From a virus: DNA of 58,878 nucleotides. The stretch covers positions 1 to 58,878 of IMG/VR virus record IMGVR_UViG_3300032242_000714. One strand, given 5' to 3'. The position numbers and the translations under genes were made by a program. Positions 3,640 through 54,241 of this stretch are shown here, piece by piece (within the stretch, counting starts at the first letter, position 1; each line of letters starts with the position of its first letter). A model generated the notes under the pieces. That model was given only the letters and a program-made list of their open reading frames with translations. It was not told where the DNA came from and did no database searches.

Positions 3640-4088
3640 AACAAGAGAATGACGAATACCTATGTAAGGTATTCCCTAAGATGACAGCCAACCGCAATCT
3701 GCCGATGACCGAAACTGCTATGTGTTGGGGATTTGAATGTGGCGATGGTTGGTTCCCGCTTATAAATCAATTGATGAGCAATATCCAACATCACCTTGAT
3801 TGGAAAAATAAAGATAGCGAAGTTGTTCCACAAGTAACGCTGGACCAAGTTAAAGAAAAGTTTGGCACACTAAGATTTTATTACACAGGCGGCGATGACT
3901 ATATTAGAGGGATGGTTGCAATGGCAGAAGCAATGTCAGGGATCCTTTGTGAGAAGTGTGGGAAACCTGCTACTACCAATTGGCCTACACTCCCCAAAGG
4001 AGGATGGGTCAGAACTTTATGTGTAGAACACGGTGGTGAAGATTACAGTATGTCAGAAGAAGAATTTTTAGAAAAGGAAAAAGAATGA
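3636..4088 (+). CDS. Conserved phage protein with C-terminal zinc-ribbon-like motif
   Basis: 150 residues. The N-terminal half has the conserved string [14 protein letters not shown] and the middle has [12 protein letters not shown], hallmarks of an uncharacterised family seen in many phages and some bacteria. The C-terminal part has CEKCGK and, about 25 residues later, LCVEH, which could form a CxxC...CxxH zinc site. The overlap with clpP (ATGA) implies co-translation. A role in nucleic-acid or protein binding is plausible but unproven. Confidence 0.65.
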
Positions 4089-4675
4089 GTTTAATTCCAA
4101 TGGTCATTGAAAAGACCAGTACAGGTGAGCGAGCATTTGACATTTATAGCCGTTTGTTAAACGAGCGTATTGTATTTTTGAACGGACCAGTTGATGATCA
4201 CTCAGCCAATGTGATTGTAGCACAGTTCCTGCATCTTGAAAGTTCGGATAGTGAAAAGGATATTCACTTTTATATCAATTCACCCGGTGGGGTTGTCACA
4301 GCAGGTATGAGCATTTATGACACAATGCAGTTCATCAAACCCGATGTTTGTACCTATGTCATGGGTCAAGCCTGTTCTATGGGTTCATTGTTGGCCCAGG
4401 CAGGATCTCCCGGCAAACGCTACATGTTGCCTAATGCTCGACATATGATTCATCAACCATCAGGCGGTGCTGGCGGGCAGGCCACAGACATGGAAATCCA
4501 AGTTAAAGAAATCCTAAAGATGAAAGAAATCCTAACTAATATCTATGTTAAGCACAATTCTGCAGGAAAAACATTTGCTCAACTGTCTTTTGACATGGAA
4601 AGAGATAAATTTATGAGTGCCACAGAAGCATTAGACTATGGACTTATAGATGAAATTGTTGAAAAGCGTACTTAA
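4085..4675 (+). CDS. clpP: ClpP ATP-dependent protease proteolytic subunit
   Basis: A 196-residue full-length ClpP. The catalytic triad is visible: Ser98 in the [10 protein letters not shown] nucleophile elbow, His123 in the [11 protein letters not shown] motif, and Asp174 in the [12 protein letters not shown] motif. The INSPGG substrate-binding strand is also present. ClpP forms two stacked heptamers that degrade proteins fed by a AAA+ unfoldase. The N-terminus starts directly at mature-like IPMVIEKT with only a few preceding residues. A phage ClpA lies 40 kb downstream with a matching docking tripeptide, so it may serve a phage ClpAP. It overlaps the next gene by 26 bases. Confidence 0.95.
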
Positions 4676-5468
4676 TGTATTACTGATTGTTTGCGTATTC
4701 TCAGGAGCGGCTTGGGCCAAAAAAGCCCCTGCTCCTCATATTCTTGCCACCAGTTATGCAGTAATGGATCTTGAAACTGGAGAAATGCTCAAAGAGCAGA
4801 ACTCTACCGAGGTCCGTAGTATAGCCAGCATCACCAAGATGATGACTGCTATCATTACTCTTGATGCTCATTTAGATATGGATGAGTTAATTCGAGTAGA
4901 AGCAGTTAGAGGCATCAGTACCCACCTACATATCGGACAATTAATTAGCAGAAGCGATCTTTTACATATTGCCCTAATGAGCTCTGATAACCTAGCGGCG
5001 AAAACCCTGGCAATGACTTACCCAGGAGGAGAATATACGTTTATTCGCCGCATGAATGACAAAGCATACAGTCTAGGTATGACTAATACAACATTCACAG
5101 ACCCCACCGGACTTGAAGAAACTAATGTTAGTACAGCACAAGATTTAATTAAAATGTTAATTGTTGCTGGTACATATGATACTATTCGAATTTATAGTAC
5201 TAGCGAATCGGCACAGATCGCCGTTCCTACAAAGAAAAAAGTTCAAATGGTACGATTTGGAACTACTAATACTCTTGTAAAAAAGTACAAAGATATCATA
5301 GTCAGTAAAACTGGCTGGATACAAAAAGCAGGAGGATGCTTAATTATGCTAGTTGAAGATCCTTCTAGCAAGCGAGCAATTGTTGTACTAAATAGTAGAA
5401 ACACCCACACCAGGTTGGTGGACGGGGATCTACTACACGGAATATACAACAATGGTAAAAGTTTTTGA
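4650..5468 (+). CDS. Secreted D-alanyl-D-alanine carboxypeptidase/endopeptidase (PBP7-like, S11)
   Basis: 272 residues with a Sec signal peptide (hydrophobic core about residues 7-20, likely cut after AWA at 23). All three penicillin-binding motifs are present: SxxK at Ser60-Lys63 (SITK), SxN at Ser112-Asn114 (SDN), and KTG at 220-222. The compact size without a PBP5-type C-terminal anchor resembles E. coli PBP7, a D,D-endopeptidase that cuts peptidoglycan cross-links in the periplasm. It starts inside clpP without a clear ribosome site and overlaps the next structural gene, so expression is probably coupled. Possible roles are wall remodelling during infection or aiding lysis. Confidence 0.9.
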
Positions 5469-6531
5469 TGGTCAAACACTTGACAATATAACACGAGATA
5501 GTCTACAACTAAACCCCGGAGACTTTTCCGGCGACCTAATAGCAGGTGGTACAATTGCCAATTTTGGTAGTACCGGTATTAAAGACCTTGCTACAAAACA
5601 AACACTGGTAGTAGAAGATGGTAAAATTACCGTTGATTCTATAACAGTTTCTACTATTAACAGTAATTTTACTGTACGTGGGGATGTTAAAGTCTACGGT
5701 GTTCTAGATGCAGGATTTGTTCGCACCACAGAACTTATCACAAATCAACGATACGAAAAACAATATTTAGAGTTTGGACCTGGAGAAAAAGGCACAAATG
5801 TAGGCACAGGGTTAATGTGGCCAAACGATCCATACAATAAACAATTTGTATTGATGAACAATCCAGATCGATTCCTTAGTACAGAAAGTTTAGAATTAAT
5901 AGAAAATCGTAATTACATAATTAATGGTAATTGGGTACTTGGTGAAACTTCTCTAGGTCCTACAGTTGTAAACAGTAATTTAACATCAGTAGGCACATTA
6001 CACGGTTTGTCTACCTCAGGTGATCTAAATATAGATGATCAAATTTTTTACAATAGTACCTCAAAGAGATTCAGTATTGGTGTAGAAGATGCAAGTGCCA
6101 TTTTTACTGTTCAAGACGAAAAAAATAACATCGAAATCATTATTGACGGTTCTGGCAATGGTGCCAGAATTGGACCAAGAAATACAAAAAATCTAGAACT
6201 GATCACAGACGATCAAGCACGTATTACAATTGGACTAAATGGAGATATTACATTTGGACATGAGTACAAAGATTCAACTGTAACTCGAGCATACGGAAAA
6301 CTTTCTGTAGGTGTTAAGAACCCTAAAGAACAGTTTGAAGTAATGGGCAACATACGTTTTGCTAATAAATTAATGGCCACAGGAACTGAGCCTCCAACAG
6401 AAGGTTCCTATAATACTGGTGATATAGTTTGGCATGCTACTCCTATCCCCGGAGGTAATATTGGTTGGATCTGTATACAAGGCGGTAGTCCTGGTCAGTG
6501 GGTACGCTGGGGATCAATCGACTACTCATAA
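5452..6531 (+). CDS. Putative virion structural / tail fibre protein
   Basis: 359 residues, beta-rich, Gly/Asn/Thr/Ser-heavy with many short strands and turns. The first 60 residues name a fibre-like repeat region (SGDLIAGGTIANFGSTG). The C-terminus ends in a compact Trp-rich segment (GGNIGWICIQGG, then GQWVRWGSIDYS) that resembles the terminal strands of other marine phage fibre proteins. No cleavage or enzyme motif is seen. It overlaps the D,D-peptidase gene by 17 bases. Tail fibre or baseplate decoration is the best guess. Confidence 0.65.
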   Translation: MVKVFDGQTLDNITRDSLQLNPGDFSGDLIAGGTIANFGSTGIKDLATKQTLVVEDGKITVDSITVSTINSNFTVRGDVKVYGVLDAGFVRTTELITNQRYEKQYLEFGPGEKGTNVGTGLMWPNDPYNKQFVLMNNPDRFLSTESLELIENRNYIINGNWVLGETSLGPTVVNSNLTSVGTLHGLSTSGDLNIDDQIFYNSTSKRFSIGVEDASAIFTVQDEKNNIEIIIDGSGNGARIGPRNTKNLELITDDQARITIGLNGDITFGHEYKDSTVTRAYGKLSVGVKNPKEQFEVMGNIRFANKLMATGTEPPTEGSYNTGDIVWHATPIPGGNIGWICIQGGSPGQWVRWGSIDYS

Positions 6532-6804: not shown

Positions 6805-6891
6805 AACAGTTAGCGGTCTTTAACGACTTTCAACCCGCTTTATAAATTCTGCATGTCGTCAAACTTGCTACTTTTTAAAAGGAGACTAGAG
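6805..6891 (+). promoter_or_regulatory. Long 5' leader of the queD-like gene, possible structured RNA
   Basis: This non-coding leader contains a short hairpin whose arms are AGCGG and CCGCT (about 6812-6836), then an A/T-rich single-stranded stretch and the AAAAGGAG ribosome site. Because queuosine-pathway genes are often controlled by preQ1 riboswitches, I compared it with the preQ1-I layout: the stem is present but the loop is too long and the diagnostic A-rich tail is missing. I therefore call only a candidate structured leader. Confidence 0.3.
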
Positions 6892-7341
6892 ATGGCAAAA
6901 TTTTTCTCAACAAAACATTACGGACACAACATTGGTCTGTCAGCGGTATTCCGTCAACCAAACGCAGATCACAGTCACTGTCACCTGCTACATGGTTATA
7001 GCCTAGCATTTACATTTACATTTGGTTGTGACACACTAGACAACAAGAACTGGGCAGTGGACTTTGGCGGACTTAAGACACTCAAAGCATGGCTAGAAGA
7101 TCATTTTGATCACAAGTTGGCTCTGGATCTTGCTGATCCACACCTGGCTAAATTTCAAGAATTAGAAGCATTAGGTCTAGCAGAGATTAGAATCTTTGAT
7201 GGAGTGGGTGCAGAGAAGTTTGCCGAACACGCTTTCAATTTTGCCAACACACTGATACGTGAAAAGACCAATAATCGTTGTTACTGTGTACGAGTTGAAT
7301 GTGCAGAACATGGCGCTAATTCAGCAACATACGAAGGATAA
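6892..7341 (+). CDS. queD: QueD-like 6-pyruvoyl/6-carboxy-tetrahydropterin synthase
   Basis: 149 residues from the ATG at 6892 (strong AAAAGGAG; the in-frame ATG at 6853 lacks one). Family features: a HSHCHLLHGYS segment (27-37) where Cys30 matches the catalytic Cys and His34 a zinc ligand, VDFGGLK (56-62), FDHKLAL (72-78), and a C-terminal VECAEHGANSA motif. QueD makes 6-carboxy-tetrahydropterin in the preQ0 pathway. The usual HGH is HGY and the AAH motif is AVF, so zinc may instead use His27/His29; similar variants occur in marine T4-like phages. A DpdA-like gene at 58 kb makes DNA deazaguanine modification its likely purpose. Confidence 0.8.
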   Translation: MAKFFSTKHYGHNIGLSAVFRQPNADHSHCHLLHGYSLAFTFTFGCDTLDNKNWAVDFGGLKTLKAWLEDHFDHKLALDLADPHLAKFQELEALGLAEIRIFDGVGAEKFAEHAFNFANTLIREKTNNRCYCVRVECAEHGANSATYEG

Positions 7342-7685: not shown

Positions 7686-7845
7686 ACGCTTCTGGCGTAT
7701 TTGGGCAAAAGCATTAGGGGAAAAATCAGGCAATACGGATAAGGAATCGGACCGTATTGCTTGTATTCGCACCGTAATTGTGCTATCATATATTATAACA
7801 AATTGCTTTATCATAGCAGGTGTAATCAGGCATTGGAACCAATAA
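7666..7845 (+). CDS. Conserved small membrane protein of T4-like phages
   Basis: 59 residues from the ATG at 7666 (an upstream in-frame ATG lies at 7657). The N-terminus is an amphipathic basic helix ([16 protein letters not shown]), a polar linker follows, and a C-terminal transmembrane helix ([21 protein letters not shown]) ends RHWNQ. I recognise this layout from an uncharacterised protein common in marine T4-like phages. It overlaps the cupin gene by 20 bases, and its stop overlaps the next start. Function unknown. Confidence 0.7.
7761..7789 (+). promoter_or_regulatory. Possible sigma70-type promoter inside the preceding gene
   Basis: TTGTAT (7761-7766), a 17-base spacer and TATCAT (7784-7789) lie within the small membrane protein gene, upstream of the nucleotide-sugar decarboxylase. 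The boxes are imperfect (one or two mismatches each), so this is a weaker candidate than the others. Confidence 0.4.
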
Positions 7846-8780
7846 TGAAAAAAATATTAGTAACCGGCGGTGCCGGATTTCTTGGATCACATTTATGTGA
7901 AAGATTAGTTAACGAAGGGCATCATGTTCTTTGTGTAGACAATTATTTTACAGGTAGTAAAAAGAATATTGAACATTTACTTGACCATAAGAACTTCGAA
8001 GTTTTACGTCAAGATGTCTGCTTTCCCCTATACGTAGAAGTTGATGAAATTTACAATCTTGCCTGTCCAGCAAGTCCGTTCTATTATCAATGGGATCCAA
8101 TTCAAACAATGAAAACTTCTGTGTTAGGAAGTTATAATTTGTTAGGATTGGCAAAACGTACAGGTGCTAAGATCTTACAAGCATCAACTAGCGAAGTATA
8201 TGGTGATCCTCAAGTTCATCCACAAACTGAAGACTATTGGGGCAATGTAAACCCAATCGGTATTCGTAGTTGTTACGATGAAGGCAAAAGAGCCGCAGAA
8301 ACTCTGTTTATGGATTACTGGCGTGTTCACTCTGTTAGAGCCAAGATTGTGCGTATCTTCAATACATATGGTCCCAGAATGGCAGAAGGAGATGGCCGTG
8401 TAGTTTCAAACTTTGTAGTACAAGCACTACAAGGCAAGCCAATTACCGTTTACGGATCAGGCGAGCAGACTCGTTCATTCTGTTATGTTGACGATCTTGT
8501 AGACGGGTTAATCAAGTTTATGGCTGACGATGATGACGAGTTTATTGGTCCGGTCAATATGGGCAATCCCGGGGAGTTTACTATGAACGAACTTGCCCAA
8601 AAAGTAATCGAGTTAACAGGTAGTCAGAGTATCCTCCTACAACAACCTTTACCAAAAGACGACCCACAACAAAGGCGTCCAGATATCAGTTTGGCCAAAT
8701 CAAGACTTGGTTGGGAACCTAGTATTGATTTAACAACAGGTCTACAAAAAACAATTGACTTTTTTCGTAAAACAATGTAA
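7845..8780 (+). CDS. UDP-glucuronate decarboxylase / UDP-xylose synthase-like (extended SDR)
   Basis: 311 residues from the ATG at 7845. NAD-binding Rossmann motif GGAGFLGSH (8-16), the family-diagnostic CPASP (74-78), catalytic Ser/Thr-Glu in STSEVYG (114-120), and the YxxxK pair Tyr144-Lys148. CPASP separates UDP-glucuronate decarboxylases from ordinary UDP-glucose 4-epimerases. The product UDP-xylose could feed glycosylation of virion or DNA or alter host surface glycans. The start codon overlaps the previous stop (TAATG). Length is normal for the soluble bacterial form. dTDP-glucose dehydratase is a less likely alternative. Confidence 0.85.
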
Positions 8781-48737: not shown

Positions 48738-51661
48738 TGAGTGGCGTAGCAGGTGCCGATCGTGTAAAAAGTCGTCAAGACTTTCAACAGTTCTTAAAAT
48801 CTTACAAAAGTCTGATCAGTCAGTTCCCTGGATTTGTAAGTTTAAATCCCAGCGGTAGTTATAACAGCAATCTTGAGAAGAATGACTTTGGTGATATAGA
48901 TCTTATTGTTCATATCCAAAGCGATCAAGACAAAGCCACAGTTAAAAAACAACTACAGGCATTCTTTATGAAACAGCCTGAAACAGTTATTGTTCCTTTC
49001 AGTTCTGCCAAACACGCAGGTAAGCGTAGTTATAATGCAGGCGAATTGGTCAGTGTTCGGTATCACGATGATCATTTAGGTTATTCAGCACAGATTGACA
49101 ACATAGTAGCATTAGATCAAAAGGAAGCAGGATTTAAACAACAATTCTTAGATTGGCCTGCAGAAAAGCAAGGCTTAATTTTAGGTTTAATTAAAATTGC
49201 CGCAATTGAAACTGATCCAAGAATTCTGTTTAAGAAATTAGGCATACCTGATCCAGGTCCTCTTGAAGAAGGTCAGGAATATGAATTTAATCTTAGTTCA
49301 GTAGAACTACAGTTAAGAAGAATTACCTACAAGCCAGGTACCTACGAACAATTAGGCAGAGAAGTCCTTTGGAATAGTAGAGACTTTGAAGACATACAAA
49401 AGTTATTGTATCAATATAACTTAAACGCAGACTTTGACCAACTATTAGCACAGGCTAAACAGGTAATAAAGAATCCACGTAGTAATGCAAGGATGCAGGG
49501 TGTGTTCTCAAGTATGATCACAGTCAAAAGCGGAGAAGTAGGTACAGCCAAAGGTGCTGGCAAAGAAGCCGCATTGGCCAAAATACAAAATACATTTAGA
49601 GAATCACGTAGCCTACTACATGCTCTAACAGAATCTGCCAATCCAGGAACAATCGTATTTGCGTTTGGAAGACTACAGCCTCCTACAATTGGACATGAAC
49701 TACTTGTCAATACTGTTAAACAGGTAGCAAAACAAAATGGTTGTCCTTACATTATCTATATCAGCAAAACAGTTGGCAAGAGTCCGGCAGATAAATTAAA
49801 GAATCCTCTCACTGTAGATCAAAAGATGATGTACTTAGGAAAAATGTTCCCAGGTACACACTTTGCTCCGGCTACTGATCAAGTTCGTACTCCTATTGAA
49901 GCCGCTAAATTTCTAAATCAAAAGTATCAAAATCTTATTCTTGTAGCAGGCGGTAGCCGTGCTGAAGAATTTGATAAACTATTAAATGACTACAATGGCA
50001 GAGATTATAATTTTGATAGCATTCGTGTTGTTAAGATTGATAGAGACCCAGACGCAGATGATGCTTCGGGTATGAGCGGAACTAAAATGCGTCAAGCGGC
50101 CATGGCTGATGACTTTGAAGCATTTAGATCAGGACTGCCAGGAGCATTAGATGATGCTACAGCACAACAACTTATGCAGGATGTGAAAGCCGGTATGACT
50201 CCAACACCTAAAATTAAAAAAACAAAAGAAGCAATGTTACCTACAAGTGCGTTTGCAGGATCTAAGAAAAACAAATTAGGGCCAGCAGGACAGTGGAAGA
50301 ACACAGGACCAAGTAAGAATCGTCCAGCCAAGGCAGGCGACTTAGTAGGCGGTGCCGCTGAAAGCGTAGAACAGAAGAAACCAGAAGAGAAAAAGAAATC
50401 GTGGGATGATTATGGCCTACCACGAGGTACAGGTAAAACAGAACCCAAAGAAAAAGTCTATCGCGGTTGGAATGATTACGAATATTCAAAGAAAAAAGAA
50501 AAAGAAGTAGCAGAATCTAACGATGTAAAAGGCACATTAAGAACAATTGCTAATGATATCGGCGAGCCTGTTACCAATGTATACGAAACACTAAAACATA
50601 TGGCCAAACGTTTCTATGATAGTCACGGAGACTTAAAAGGTTTTGGCATGGTCGCAGGCGGTGTAGGAGGTCGTTGGTTCCAGACATTCTATTTTAATAG
50701 ATTACAAAATGAACTATTTGATTTAACCAGACAGAGTCCAAAACATACAGTACCTTTACAACAGTTTTTACGAGGTGTAGAAGTCAAAGGCAAAATTGAA
50801 AATGCCAAAGGTTTTAGTACTATCAGTAAAGAACTTCCAGATATACTTGCTGATATAGGTACTAAAATAGGATATCCACCGTTGGCTCACAATGCTCGTC
50901 GTTGGATGCAGAACAGAGAAGATTACGAACAGTACCTAAGTGATTTAGAATTAAGTGATTATGAAGACGACGATGACTTTGATTCTGTACCCAAAACTCC
51001 TAAAGATCCAGAGATGGGCAAACAGCGTAGTCAAGCAGAAGACATTGTCAACGATGTTTTAAGAAAATTACCAAGCAGAATTGCTGGCGATATTCGTAAT
51101 GCTATTGCTCGTGCGCCAAACAAACTACAGGCTTTACAACAAGAACTACAAAAACGTGGTGTCAAGGTTCCTATGGAAAACATGGCTGGTGTAGGTGATA
51201 TGGATAATCCAGAATTAAACGCTGTGTATGAAGCCAAAGCCACAAAAACAAGACTTGATCCAAGTTGTTGGAAAGGCTATCATAAAGCAGGTACCAAAGT
51301 CAAAGGTGGTACAAGAGTCAATAATTGTGTGCCCAATGAAGCCGCTAATCCTGCGCAACAGGCCGCTATTGCTATTGCTAAAAAGAAAAAGCGAGGCACA
51401 ACAGAAGCAGACGATATAGAACATGGATACCCTATGATGGCTACAGAACACAAGAAGGGTGTTAAGGCTGTGAAGTATACCAAGAAACCTAAAGGTATTG
51501 AACCACCGAAACCCAGAAATTTTGTTGCCAAAAACGCAGTAATGGGAGGTGCTGGTGCTCATAAGAATAAGAAAAAAGAAGCAAAGCATAAACATGTAGA
51601 GATCGGTGAGGCTTGGGAACGAGAAATGGCTCGTGCTATTAGACTTTTGGAAAATAAATAA
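48737..51661 (+). CDS. Multidomain virion-type protein: nucleotidyltransferase + NMNAT-like domains + basic tail
   Basis: 974 residues. Domain 1 (about 1-240): nucleotidyltransferase fold with PSGSYNS (GS at 40-41) and DIDLIVH (53-59). A helical, LTE-ended linker (297-299) precedes domain 2 (about 303-470): adenylyl/cytidylyltransferase with FGRLQPPTIGHELL (PTIGH 316-320) and MSGTKMR (446-452), as in NMNAT/NadR. The remainder is Lys-rich, with a helical domain (about 590-730), an acidic patch (DYEDDDDFD) and a LDPSCWKGYHKAGTKVKGG segment known from marine phage virion proteins. It looks like a polyprotein of internal head proteins. Reaction products unknown. Confidence 0.75.
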   Translation: MSGVAGADRVKSRQDFQQFLKSYKSLISQFPGFVSLNPSGSYNSNLEKNDFGDIDLIVHIQSDQDKATVKKQLQAFFMKQPETVIVPFSSAKHAGKRSYNAGELVSVRYHDDHLGYSAQIDNIVALDQKEAGFKQQFLDWPAEKQGLILGLIKIAAIETDPRILFKKLGIPDPGPLEEGQEYEFNLSSVELQLRRITYKPGTYEQLGREVLWNSRDFEDIQKLLYQYNLNADFDQLLAQAKQVIKNPRSNARMQGVFSSMITVKSGEVGTAKGAGKEAALAKIQNTFRESRSLLHALTESANPGTIVFAFGRLQPPTIGHELLVNTVKQVAKQNGCPYIIYISKTVGKSPADKLKNPLTVDQKMMYLGKMFPGTHFAPATDQVRTPIEAAKFLNQKYQNLILVAGGSRAEEFDKLLNDYNGRDYNFDSIRVVKIDRDPDADDASGMSGTKMRQAAMADDFEAFRSGLPGALDDATAQQLMQDVKAGMTPTPKIKKTKEAMLPTSAFAGSKKNKLGPAGQWKNTGPSKNRPAKAGDLVGGAAESVEQKKPEEKKKSWDDYGLPRGTGKTEPKEKVYRGWNDYEYSKKKEKEVAESNDVKGTLRTIANDIGEPVTNVYETLKHMAKRFYDSHGDLKGFGMVAGGVGGRWFQTFYFNRLQNELFDLTRQSPKHTVPLQQFLRGVEVKGKIENAKGFSTISKELPDILADIGTKIGYPPLAHNARRWMQNREDYEQYLSDLELSDYEDDDDFDSVPKTPKDPEMGKQRSQAEDIVNDVLRKLPSRIAGDIRNAIARAPNKLQALQQELQKRGVKVPMENMAGVGDMDNPELNAVYEAKATKTRLDPSCWKGYHKAGTKVKGGTRVNNCVPNEAANPAQQAAIAIAKKKKRGTTEADDIEHGYPMMATEHKKGVKAVKYTKKPKGIEPPKPRNFVAKNAVMGGAGAHKNKKKEAKHKHVEIGEAWEREMARAIRLLENK

Positions 51662-51665
51662 TATT

Positions 51666-52544
51666 ATGAAAATAGATCAATTATTCGAATCAGGTGACGA
51701 TTTAGCATCTCAGTTTGCTCAGATGGCTAAAGATAAAGGCATGAATGTTAGAGTTCGTGGAACCCCAGACCAAGAACGACAACGTACACAAGATATGTTG
51801 GCGCAACGTCGTGCTGATCAAGAAAAACAAAGTCAATTAGCAGGTGAAAAAGATTTTGCTAATCTTGACCAACTTGAAGCCGAATACGCAAAAATGAAAG
51901 ACGAATATCAATCATTAGGCGGATCTAATTGGCAGTATGCTGATCGTGAACAGAATCTATCAGCCAGCGAACGTAAGGCCCGCAGTATGGAAGATGGATT
52001 AAGAGCACTATGGTCGAGAATCCAACGTGCTAAGAAATATGGTGGAGGTTTAGCGGAAGGTGATGCTCTTGCTGACTTTTTAGCAAAGGGCGGAAAAATT
52101 CATCAATTACCTTACAAAAACCCACGTAAGGCCGATAAAACAGATTATGGTAGTAAACATATTGGTACATTAGGCGGCAAAGGTACAAAAGGTAAAGTCA
52201 CCGGCAAGGCGGCAAATGTAGGAAAAGTAGGGAAACCTGTTGTAAGTGCCGAAAGTTCACATCCTGACGAAAAAGAAGATAAAGCACTTATTCGTAAAAT
52301 GGTTAAACAACAGGCATTGAAAAAAGAAAACATGATGGCAAAAGAACAGCATGAAGATCATGAAATATCAATGGCCACAAGCGAATTAAAAAATGTTTAC
52401 ATCAATGCTAAAAAATTGTTTGATATTATTAAACAACGCAGTGAACAAGAAGGATTAGATGCTTGGCAACAGAGCAAGATTACCAAAGCCTCAGATTACT
52501 TAAATAGTGTATTAACAGCCATTAGAGGCGAACCACGTAGATAA
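51666..52544 (+). CDS. Basic helical phage protein, likely virion-associated
   Basis: 292 residues from ATG 51666, five bases after the preceding stop; a longer in-frame start (51606) lies inside the previous gene. Leader MKIDQLFESGDDLASQF, then a coiled-coil region (DQERQRTQDMLAQRRADQEK), a Lys/Gly-rich centre (GGKIHQLPYKNPRKADKTD), and C-terminal helices. No ribosome site. The basic middle resembles DNA-associated internal head proteins of marine T4-like phages. Confidence 0.65.
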   Translation: MKIDQLFESGDDLASQFAQMAKDKGMNVRVRGTPDQERQRTQDMLAQRRADQEKQSQLAGEKDFANLDQLEAEYAKMKDEYQSLGGSNWQYADREQNLSASERKARSMEDGLRALWSRIQRAKKYGGGLAEGDALADFLAKGGKIHQLPYKNPRKADKTDYGSKHIGTLGGKGTKGKVTGKAANVGKVGKPVVSAESSHPDEKEDKALIRKMVKQQALKKENMMAKEQHEDHEISMATSELKNVYINAKKLFDIIKQRSEQEGLDAWQQSKITKASDYLNSVLTAIRGEPRR

Positions 52545-52545
52545 T

Positions 52546-52917
52546 ATGAGAGCAAAAGAATTCATAGTCGAAACTAAACCAGAAGGCAAGATGCACCCAC
52601 ATCACGCGAATGTAGGACAAGGCGTATCAAGATCACGTGATGTAGGCGGATATGATCGTGTGTATCACATGAATCGACTAATGATGGCTATGGGAATGGC
52701 AGACGGTAAAAGTGAAAAACCTGTAGAGATGGATTCTGCATCATGGACAGAAAAATACAATACACATCATCCATATACAGAAGAAGAACATACCATGATC
52801 AAGTCTGCATTGAACACAATTCCTACAGACAGTAAAGAAATTACTCCTTGGTCAAAGAGTATTGAACCAGATGATACACATAAAGTAAGTCCTGTTGCAA
52901 ATTGGATGAAGAAATGA
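52546..52917 (+). CDS. Conserved small phage protein with capsid-targeting-like leader
   Basis: 123 residues starting MRAKEFIVETKPEGKMHPHH, where IVE (7-9) fits the I/L-x-E pattern of T4 prohead protease sites. Then RDVGGYDRVYHMNRLMMAMGMADG, a conserved-looking string, and an acidic/aromatic C-terminus. I recognise this kind of protein from marine T4-like phages. ATGA-coupled to the sigma-like gene. Internal head protein suggested. Confidence 0.7.
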   Translation: MRAKEFIVETKPEGKMHPHHANVGQGVSRSRDVGGYDRVYHMNRLMMAMGMADGKSEKPVEMDSASWTEKYNTHHPYTEEEHTMIKSALNTIPTDSKEITPWSKSIEPDDTHKVSPVANWMKK

Positions 52918-53909
52918 GAGCATCTGAAATTATTATCAAAACCAAACGTAAAAGTTCTGCTGTAAAACTACAGAGTGCTTGGGAAAAGCAACAGGCTAAA
53001 TCTACTGCCAGTCGCAAGCGTGGCGAAGAATATATGGCCAAGATCAAACAAGATATTGCTAAGAAAAATCAAGGTGTGGAAGAAGCATTTCCTAATCAAC
53101 AAATGTCACTATATAATCCAAATGGAAAAACATATAGAACCGACAAGAAAATGCCAACATTAGATCCAAATGATCCAGTACATAACGCTGATCGTTATGG
53201 ACAAGAACACGACGAGCCTTACCAACAAGATTTTAATCGTGAAGAAATAAAAAGATTAGTTAAACAACATTTAGACGAACTTAATGATCGTCAAAAGCAA
53301 GTCTTAAAACTGATGTATTGGGAAGAAATGACCCTCGAAGAAATAGCAGTCGAACTAAAGGTTACTCGAGAGCGTGTTCGTCAAATATGGGCCAGAGCCA
53401 TGCGAATGTTAAGACAGAATATGAAATCTAAAAACTATGACTTTGATATGTCAGAAGATTGGCAAAAGGTCAATAGACACGATAAGACAGACGGTCTAAG
53501 CAAAAAGGCTGTTAGTGCTTATCGTAGAGAGCACCCCGGTTCAAAATTAAAAACTGCTGTCACAACCAAACCTTCAAAATTAAAGAAAGGTTCTAAGTCT
53601 GCTAAACGCAGAGCAAGTTTTTGTGCTCGTATGAGCGGTATGAAAAAACACCGAACTGGTGCTAAAACAAAACGTGATCCAGATAGCAATATTAATAAAG
53701 CACTTCGCCGTTGGCATTGTGAAAGTATCGAAGAGATGCAGGAACTAATTATGATTGGAGAACAATATATCTCCCAATTACGAGAGTCAGCAACTGGCGG
53801 TGCTACTTCATCTGGTTCAGTTGCAAGCGTGGCAATGCCCTTAGGCGGCAAAAAGAAAAAGAAAGGCGGCGGAGTAAACTTACTCGGCGGACCTGTATTC
53901 AAACGCTAA
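52914..53909 (+). CDS. Fusion of sigma70 region-4-like helix-turn-helix with DUF6321-like phage domain
   Basis: 331 residues. Basic N-terminus with leader MRASEIIIKTKRKSS. Residues about 108-170 match sigma70 region 4 (LNDRQKQVLKLMYWEEMTLEE then IAVELKVTRERVRQIWARAM), including the DNA-recognition RERVRQI helix. Residues about 185-270 (TDGLSKKAVSAYRREHPGSK, AKRRASFCARMSGMKK, DPDSNINKALRRW) form a Cys/Lys-rich domain I associate with DUF6321 of marine phage proteins. C-terminus Gly/Lys-rich. No region 2. Could be a promoter-recognition adaptor, possibly packaged. Coupled by ATGA. Confidence 0.75.
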   Translation: MRASEIIIKTKRKSSAVKLQSAWEKQQAKSTASRKRGEEYMAKIKQDIAKKNQGVEEAFPNQQMSLYNPNGKTYRTDKKMPTLDPNDPVHNADRYGQEHDEPYQQDFNREEIKRLVKQHLDELNDRQKQVLKLMYWEEMTLEEIAVELKVTRERVRQIWARAMRMLRQNMKSKNYDFDMSEDWQKVNRHDKTDGLSKKAVSAYRREHPGSKLKTAVTTKPSKLKKGSKSAKRRASFCARMSGMKKHRTGAKTKRDPDSNINKALRRWHCESIEEMQELIMIGEQYISQLRESATGGATSSGSVASVAMPLGGKKKKKGGGVNLLGGPVFKR

Positions 53910-53922
53910 TTTGTCCAGAGAC

Positions 53923-53951
53923 TTGACTTCCGCAGTCAAGCAACGTATAAT
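53923..53951 (+). promoter_or_regulatory. Sigma70-type promoter of the dsbA-like gene
   Basis: TTGACT (53923-53928), 17 bases, TATAAT (53946-53951). Transcription from about 53958 leaves a 14-base leader with AGGAG before ATG 53972. Confidence 0.85.
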
Positions 53952-53971
53952 TAAACGCATAGGAGAATTAT

Positions 53972-54241
53972 ATGAGCAAAGTTTTCGGCACCCCTGAACA
54001 AACAAAAATCAAACAAATTATTTCTGAAGGCATGACTGTAATGCAGGAAATTCAAGATCTCACAGAAGGTCTAAATGAAACAATCAAAGCAGTAGCAGAA
54101 GAATTAGAAGTTAAACCAAGTGTTATTAAAAAAGCAATTCGTATCGCACAAAAAGATCAATGGGATCAAGTATTCCGTGAGTTTGATGATCTTGAAACCA
54201 TTGTTGATATCAGTGGACATGCTAATCGCAGGGAAGGCTAA
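53972..54241 (+). CDS. dsbA: T4 DsbA-like dsDNA-binding late-transcription regulator
   Basis: 89 residues, the size of T4 DsbA (unrelated to the disulfide oxidoreductase). It matches the phage family at FGTPEQTKIKQIISEG, MQEIQDLTEGLNETIKAVAEELEVKPSVIKKAI and the acidic C-terminal helix DDLETIVD. T4 DsbA binds double-stranded DNA at late promoters. Mostly helical. Driven by its own promoter and coupled to the next gene. Implies late transcription machinery like that of T4. Confidence 0.85.
   Translation: MSKVFGTPEQTKIKQIISEGMTVMQEIQDLTEGLNETIKAVAEELEVKPSVIKKAIRIAQKDQWDQVFREFDDLETIVDISGHANRREG

Follow-up and report, generated by a model that had tools for sequence, protein, structure and literature searches.

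Architecture of a modular gene in a phage cargo cluster

The window, by which we mean the whole 58,878-nucleotide stretch of viral DNA analyzed here (IMG/VR record IMGVR_UViG_3300032242_000714, positions 1 to 58,878), contains at 52914-53909 on the plus strand an intact open reading frame (ORF) of 331 amino acids from its ATG. This ATG overlaps the stop codon of the preceding gene (ATGA); an upstream TTG would put the start at 52902. The encoded protein consists of a start resembling a capsid-targeting sequence (CTS), a basic module, a sigma-4 cassette, a DUF6321 domain and a Gly/Lys tail, all on the plus strand. The CTS-like N-terminus, MRASEIIIK (52914-52940), is followed by the basic module (TKRKSSAVKLQSAWEKQQAKSTASRKRGEEYMAKIKQD.., 52941-53069) and by a left linker, QGVEE/A (CAAGGTGTGGAAGAAGCA, 53070-53087; here and below the slash marks the presumed cut), which is a degenerate version (14/18) of the 18-base repeat CAAGGTGTGGCGGAAGGC. 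The exchangeable cassette, delimited by the break in blastn homology to a related contig, L002, spans 53085-53456. Within it, Pfam, AlphaFold2 and Foldseek place a sigma-70 region 4 (PF04545, 53271-53417), including a -35 recognition helix, VTRERVRQI (residues 150-158, 53361-53387). The DUF6321 domain (PF19846, 53478-53714), assigned by Pfam, and a conserved tail, GSVASVAMPLGGKKKKKGGGVNLLGGPVFKR (53814-53906), which is retained in the orthologues of contigs L002 and L023, complete the protein.

The initial annotation had proposed that a sigma-70 region 4 helix-turn-helix (HTH) is fused to DUF6321 in a single ORF, and both domain calls are confirmed: Sigma70_r4 matches residues 120-168 with 64.6 bits (cut-off 24.1, E 5.9e-18), and DUF6321 matches residues 189-267 with 43.2 bits (curated cut-off 28.5, E 6e-11). 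It had also stated, correctly, that region 2 is missing: the protein has no Pfam match to Sigma70_r2 (PF04542) and, lacking this region for core binding and -10 recognition, it is not a sigma factor. For comparison, the sigma factor of Vibrio phage D506 carries both regions. The YlxM/UPF0122 profile scores 23.1 bits against a cut-off of 22.7, over positions 8-63 of 101 only, which is weaker than Sigma70_r4.

A phmmer search of the PDB retrieved primary sigma factors, matched in their region 4 (best E 6e-8). In an AlphaFold2 model of the cassette, computed from the single sequence, the helices of region 4 reach pLDDT values of 83-92 and confident helices occur nowhere else; the N-terminal 50 residues of the cassette, modelled at low confidence, are probably disordered. 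Foldseek aligned this model with region 4 of Taq SigA on -35 DNA (1ku7, TMt 0.72) and with YlxM, at E-values that are weak (best 7e-3), as expected for about 65 residues. The HTH is a genuine sigma region 4. Its VTRERVRQI helix agrees with that of primary sigma factors where E. coli sigma-70 has R584, E585, R588 and Q589, the residues that contact the -35 element there; TRERxRQI is invariant in an alignment of the cassette with two other phage sigma-4 segments. The protein therefore resembles the sigma-70 family in its complete region 4 and its primary-sigma-type recognition helix, and differs from it by the absence of region 2. YlxM/UPF0122 and the phage ArpU, RinA and Q-like HTH proteins likewise have a region-4-like HTH without region 2; unlike the protein studied here, they are single-domain regulators with no DUF6321, and belong to no CTS-bearing family.

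Phage proteins having a sigma-4 segment alone, without region 2, are common. A profile search recovered 80 phage sigma-4 proteins, none of which (0/80) has DUF6321 or GVAE links, and a search of other viral contigs with the cassette found no close relative. A survey for further HTH-DUF6321 fusions, as the initial annotation had suggested, returned none among these 80 proteins or among 133 ORFs scanned with Pfam (the ORF under study and 132 carrying the link described below), so that the architecture has no second example in everything sampled. We found no published fusion of this kind either, in line with the claim that it had not been described before. Since neither the scanned polyproteins nor the 80 sigma-4 proteins provide another sigma-4 cargo, conservation gives no gauge of selected function.

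Upstream, on the same strand, lies a run of genes with comparable features. Two neighbours have CTS-like starts, MLLNEFFG (47375-47749), which is like the T4 Alt start without its E, and (V/M)FLNELFNN (47751-48737). They are followed by a cytidylyltransferase-like multi-module protein (48737-51661), in which a 50-residue module ending in VAE/S is a difference from L002, by a multi-module protein starting with MKIDQLFES (51666-52544), which has about 270 extra residues in L002 at a GG(V/L)AE site, and by a small protein with a strict CTS, MRAKEFIVE/T (52546-52917). A SutA-like RNA polymerase-binding motif in the 51666-52544 gene was considered and dropped: it covers 14 residues, falls below the cut-off and is weak also in L179 and L077. 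Downstream, at 53923-54241, a sigma-70 promoter matching 11 of 12 consensus positions (TTGACT-17-TATAAT) precedes a gene for an 89-amino-acid 'transcriptional regulator', conserved at 78-99% in relatives, with the cargo cluster on one side and the DNA polymerase gene on the other. The number of sigma-70-like promoters in the region is not above chance, and the window shows no enrichment of the T4 late promoter, TATAAATA. Elsewhere, this fragment of a T4-like freshwater phage carries QueD-like (6853-7341) and nucleotide-sugar epimerase (7761-8780) genes.

Cassette exchange and an 18-base repeat at module joints

A whole-protein search retrieved 53 loci, the closest being L002, a sister of the window on a 57 kb contig. 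The two are collinear over 31.7-58 kb at 92-97% identity, interrupted by a gap at about 40.7-41.3 kb and by the cargo cluster; the genes neighbouring the ORF are 93-100% identical in L002. Inside the ORF, blastn homology ends at 53072 and restarts at 53454, where L002 has two unrelated modules. The ends of its orthologue are conserved: the N-terminal 57 residues are 78% identical, and DUF6321 and the tail are nearly identical. In the L023 and L024 orthologues, both ends are joined directly, with no cassette between them. The sigma-4 segment is an exchangeable cassette inside a modular cargo protein. This is where the initial annotation has to be amended, as it described a dedicated two-domain protein, and the site holds different cassettes, or no cassette, in the nearest relatives. 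An assembly artefact, which it had named as a possible cause of the fusion, is unlikely, since the flanking halves lie together in one gene in the independent contigs L002, L023 and L024, the sigma-4 junctions themselves being present in the window contig only.

Three more module differences separate the window from L002, at about 50.4, 52.06 and 52.2 kb; they fall in the two upstream multi-module genes and mostly adjoin VxE motifs. In L002, one module (DDRTVANIKNYERELAKY..KSKQGVAEG) is present in two neighbouring genes, which is direct evidence of gene-to-gene copying. The basic N-terminal module also resides within larger polyproteins (L079, of 1776 amino acids, L080 and L082), and both it and DUF6321 are recurrent modules with many different partners. 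A single polypeptide thus combines at least two unrelated domains in a composition that varies between relatives, as is the case for polyvalent proteins. Next to the basic module, the polyprotein at 667-3237 of L080 (found also in L081) has an HD domain that by eye is like those of (p)ppGpp hydrolases, which makes it a possible stringent-response cargo.

Many relatives consist of unrelated modules in a row, held together by QGVAEG, a V-x-E/G link with 23 occurrences where shuffling the proteins predicts 0.02. Its DNA is nearly always (C)AAGGTGTGGCGGAAGGC, and conservation is confined to that stretch. In the viral collection, the exact 18-mer is present in at least 120 stretches, and 154 of 154 copies among the matches listed are in the QGVAEG frame. 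Within the link, Val is encoded by GTG in 93% of cases (background 12%) and Ala by GCG in 100% (background 7%), a contrast that is large even though the copies are related and hence not independent. A control pattern using the common Val and Ala codons (about 59% background usage against less than 1%) yielded 42 copies in the whole collection, compared to the at least 120 stretches of the repeat. This skewed spelling indicates that not only the peptide but also the DNA of the link is maintained, as expected of a recombination joint. It may at the same time be a protease site, as its fit to a hydrophobic-x-E pattern suggests; with V at P3, where T4 gp21 prefers L or I, it is near, though not identical to, the prohead-protease motif [LI]-x-E. 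The repeat links unrelated modules across a great many phage proteins, such as the L039/L041 polyprotein (3868-6348) and those of many loci from L083 to L202. Our literature searches, which covered few subscription journals or preprints, returned one unrelated paper for GVAEG and no paper mentioning DUF6321.

With up to 3 mismatches allowed, the repeat is absent from the window itself, and the links on either side of the sigma-4 cassette are degenerate (QGVEE/A and MSE/D); this copy might be packaged but incompletely cut, or it might be decaying.

Cargo recognized by Pfam in the 133 ORFs includes DUF6321 (20), GNAT acetyltransferases, GP88, cytidine deaminase, ParB_N, methyltransferase, Polbeta-type nucleotidyltransferase, NT5C, LysM and a DnaJ-type zinc domain, and the ORF of the window is the only one with sigma region 4. 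Modules recur at differing positions in different chains, and 195 of the 442 modules in the sample are singletons. Modules resembling ParB/Srx nucleases and ADP-ribosyltransferases (YHATDANGLKGMLSSG..) were noted in L039/L041 (3868-6348), L172 (7468-10377) and L193 (3-2153), by eye and mostly under the Pfam cut-offs. It is conceivable that the sigma-4 cassette is no more than a transient passenger, in a process where domains land at recombination-prone links and remain mostly functionless until they are lost. That it was found once among all sampled relatives, that the links and the CTS of this copy are degenerate and that singletons are so numerous would all fit such a scenario; against it stand the open frame, the intact recognition helix and the enrichment of recurrent cargo in plausible effectors (GNAT, ParB-like, cytidine deaminase, methyltransferase), and we regard it as highly improbable.

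Capsid-targeting-like starts and virion content in relatives

A CTS-like motif, M[KR]xx[EQD][FILV][FILVN]x[ESN], opens 31 of 40 distinct DUF6321 relatives, with starts such as MRFTEFISE, MRFNEIISE, MKINDLLVE and MKTYQFITE, and the T4-style form M[KR]xxE[FI]IxE is found among them. The T4 proteins cut by gp21 begin in a similar manner: MKTYQEFIAE for IPII and IPIII, MELITELFDE for Alt, MAKINELLRE for gp24 and MLKEQLIAE for gp22. T4 gp21 is specific for L/I-x-E, and packaging of IPIII needs no more than its first ten residues (PMC9026906). In the window copy, the P1 Glu of the CTS is a Lys (MRASEIIIK), and the orthologues keep the Glu (MRINDLLVE in L002, MRASEIITE in L023).

Neither gp21 nor gp23 is encoded in the window, a 59 kb fragment without head genes. 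The six relatives that measure at least 190 kb all (6/6) carry both a gp21-type protease (PF03420) and gp23 (PF07068); these carriers include the nearest large relatives by polB (81-82%), L051 in genome G008 and L053 in G009. The N-termini of gp23 in the large relatives have L/I-x-E before A or S. A gene at 4085-4675 was examined as the phage's own head protease and rejected, its PHROG name, 'head maturation protease', being misleading for a ClpP-like sequence that is not gp21. This ClpP-like gene and a ClpA-like gene (43893-46166) both appear to be present in the window.

Further evidence comes from cyanophage S-CREM2, whose DUF6321 protein is ORF137 (108049-109521). According to Table 3 of PMC10665884, ORF137 was detected by mass spectrometry (MS) in purified virions, as were the ORF154 cytidylyltransferase and other hypothetical proteins; the evidence for ORF137 amounts to 4 peptides and 4.1% coverage, and its authors warn of possible carry-over. 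ORF137 (gp137) has no canonical CTS. A CTS pattern derived from T4 sites picked 7 of 218 S-CREM2 proteins, 5 of them among the virion proteins in that table (Fisher p 0.009), this T4-only pattern being the second tried, after a narrower one that matched none of the virion proteins. The five are a SAM hydrolase, a kinase, gp13, gp136 and the cytidylyltransferase. T4-like starts (MKDFDSFLEE, VKRFDAFLTE, MKNFSSFLTE) are visible on the non-structural proteins gp6, gp13, gp14, gp136 and gp154 (L205-L208), listed there as MS-detected, and RFASFMAEA lies near the N-terminus of the Cas9-annotated gp12. The passages of PMC10665884 consulted make no mention of these starts. Packaging of DUF6321-type modular proteins is thus supported by homology and by the proteomics of a relative. 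The idea in the initial annotation that the protein is perhaps delivered with the DNA gains independent support from the capsid-targeting N-termini, the gp21-type protease of relatives and the DUF6321 protein in virions.

The protein could instead be an unpackaged intracellular transcription regulator built on a sigma-4-like HTH, comparable to ArpU, RinA, Q-like proteins or YlxM, with DUF6321 perhaps as an RNA- or DNA-binding half. Such HTH proteins without region 2 abound in phages, among the PHROG matches are a Q-like antitermination family and further transcription regulators, the promoter at 53923-53951 precedes a next gene (53972) with a 'transcriptional regulator' PHROG, and the P1 Glu of the CTS is lost. 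However, the gene sits in a run of CTS-like genes and has orthologues with an intact CTS and no HTH; relatives of DUF6321 and of the cytidylyltransferase are present in S-CREM2 virions; and phages that are 93-97% identical would be expected to keep a regulator in common, whereas the HTH is missing from L002. We consider this explanation unlikely.

The family resembles the internal head proteins of T-even phages (T4 IPI, IPII, IPIII and Alt) in the N-terminal CTS, intact in the orthologues, in a T4-type phage with a gp21 protease, encoded by the large relatives, and in a diverse, non-essential cargo. The T4 internal proteins have one cargo each, unlike the chains described here, in which cargoes follow one another across a repeated VxE link and are exchanged as cassettes, and no T4 internal protein has a sigma region 4. 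There is also a likeness to polyvalent proteins, multi-domain phage proteins with diverse anti-host domains that are predicted to be packaged and proteolytically released (PMC5512222). Their release was proposed to proceed via embedded peptidase domains, reported for some members (Iyer et al. 2017, PMC5512222), and the ADP-ribosyltransferases of T4-like Alt were set apart from genuine polyvalent proteins in the same study, the text of which does not mention a sigma factor. No peptidase domain was detected in the protein of the window, nor among the Pfam families listed for its relatives; in contrast to polyvalent proteins, the present family has head-protease-like links with a DNA-level repeat in a T4-like phage setting.

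A candidate sigma-4 mimic and its proposed delivery by the capsid

With moderate confidence, we favour the view that the gene encodes a capsid-delivered modular cargo whose sigma-4 mimic engages host RNA polymerase or -35 DNA. The product would belong to a family of modular internal head proteins, ejected by T4-like aquatic phages. A short N-terminal CTS would bring the protein into the prohead, where a gp21-type protease would cut the string of modules at V/I/L-x-E links, and the released modules would be ejected into the host alongside the DNA. Exchange of modules between genes and between phages would take place at the in-frame 18-base repeat that encodes the link. Once free, the sigma-4 module could reach the polymerase of the host ahead of all phage gene expression and would most likely bind the tip of the beta-flap, TTGACA-like -35 DNA, or both. 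In doing so, it would displace or compete with the host sigma factor, or bias the polymerase, within minutes of entry, and a free region 4 might reduce host initiation or shift it between promoter types.

Host RNA polymerase as a target has precedents. Xp10 P7 binds both beta (flap) and beta' and in this way displaces sigma (PMC3985653), and T4 Alt is ejected with the DNA and modifies RNA polymerase (note in the T4 record), a target that the cassette is proposed to share. Both are functional analogues acting on the host enzyme with folds unrelated to the cassette, and P7 is not known to be packaged.

Another role within the head can be imagined, in which the cassette is a DNA anchor that condenses the packaged DNA or retains the cargo, and has nothing to do with host promoters. 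Region 4 is a DNA-binding fold, and the surrounding modules, short and rich in Lys and Arg, are suited to DNA contact; but the exact -35 contact residues, TRERxRQ, are kept, which non-specific condensation does not necessitate, and the fold recurs in none of the other cargo sampled. Such a role appears improbable to us.

Beyond this one cassette, we tentatively propose, as a possibility that is still rather doubtful, that T4-like phages have a cassette system for ejected effectors. The 18-base repeat would serve both as a recombination joint and as an in-frame prohead-protease site, shuffling acetyltransferases, ParB-like nucleases, deaminases and a sigma-4 mimic into capsid-targeted polyproteins.

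An odd, isolated fusion thereby becomes a testable system, and the repeat offers a simple handle for gathering very many undescribed effector modules from metagenomes. If the proposal is true, sequence alone would tell which proteins a T4-like phage injects, as which fragments, and how it renews them. The sigma-4 cassette, in that case, would be the first sigma-factor mimic known to be delivered by a virion, and a new route by which a phage reaches host transcription at entry.
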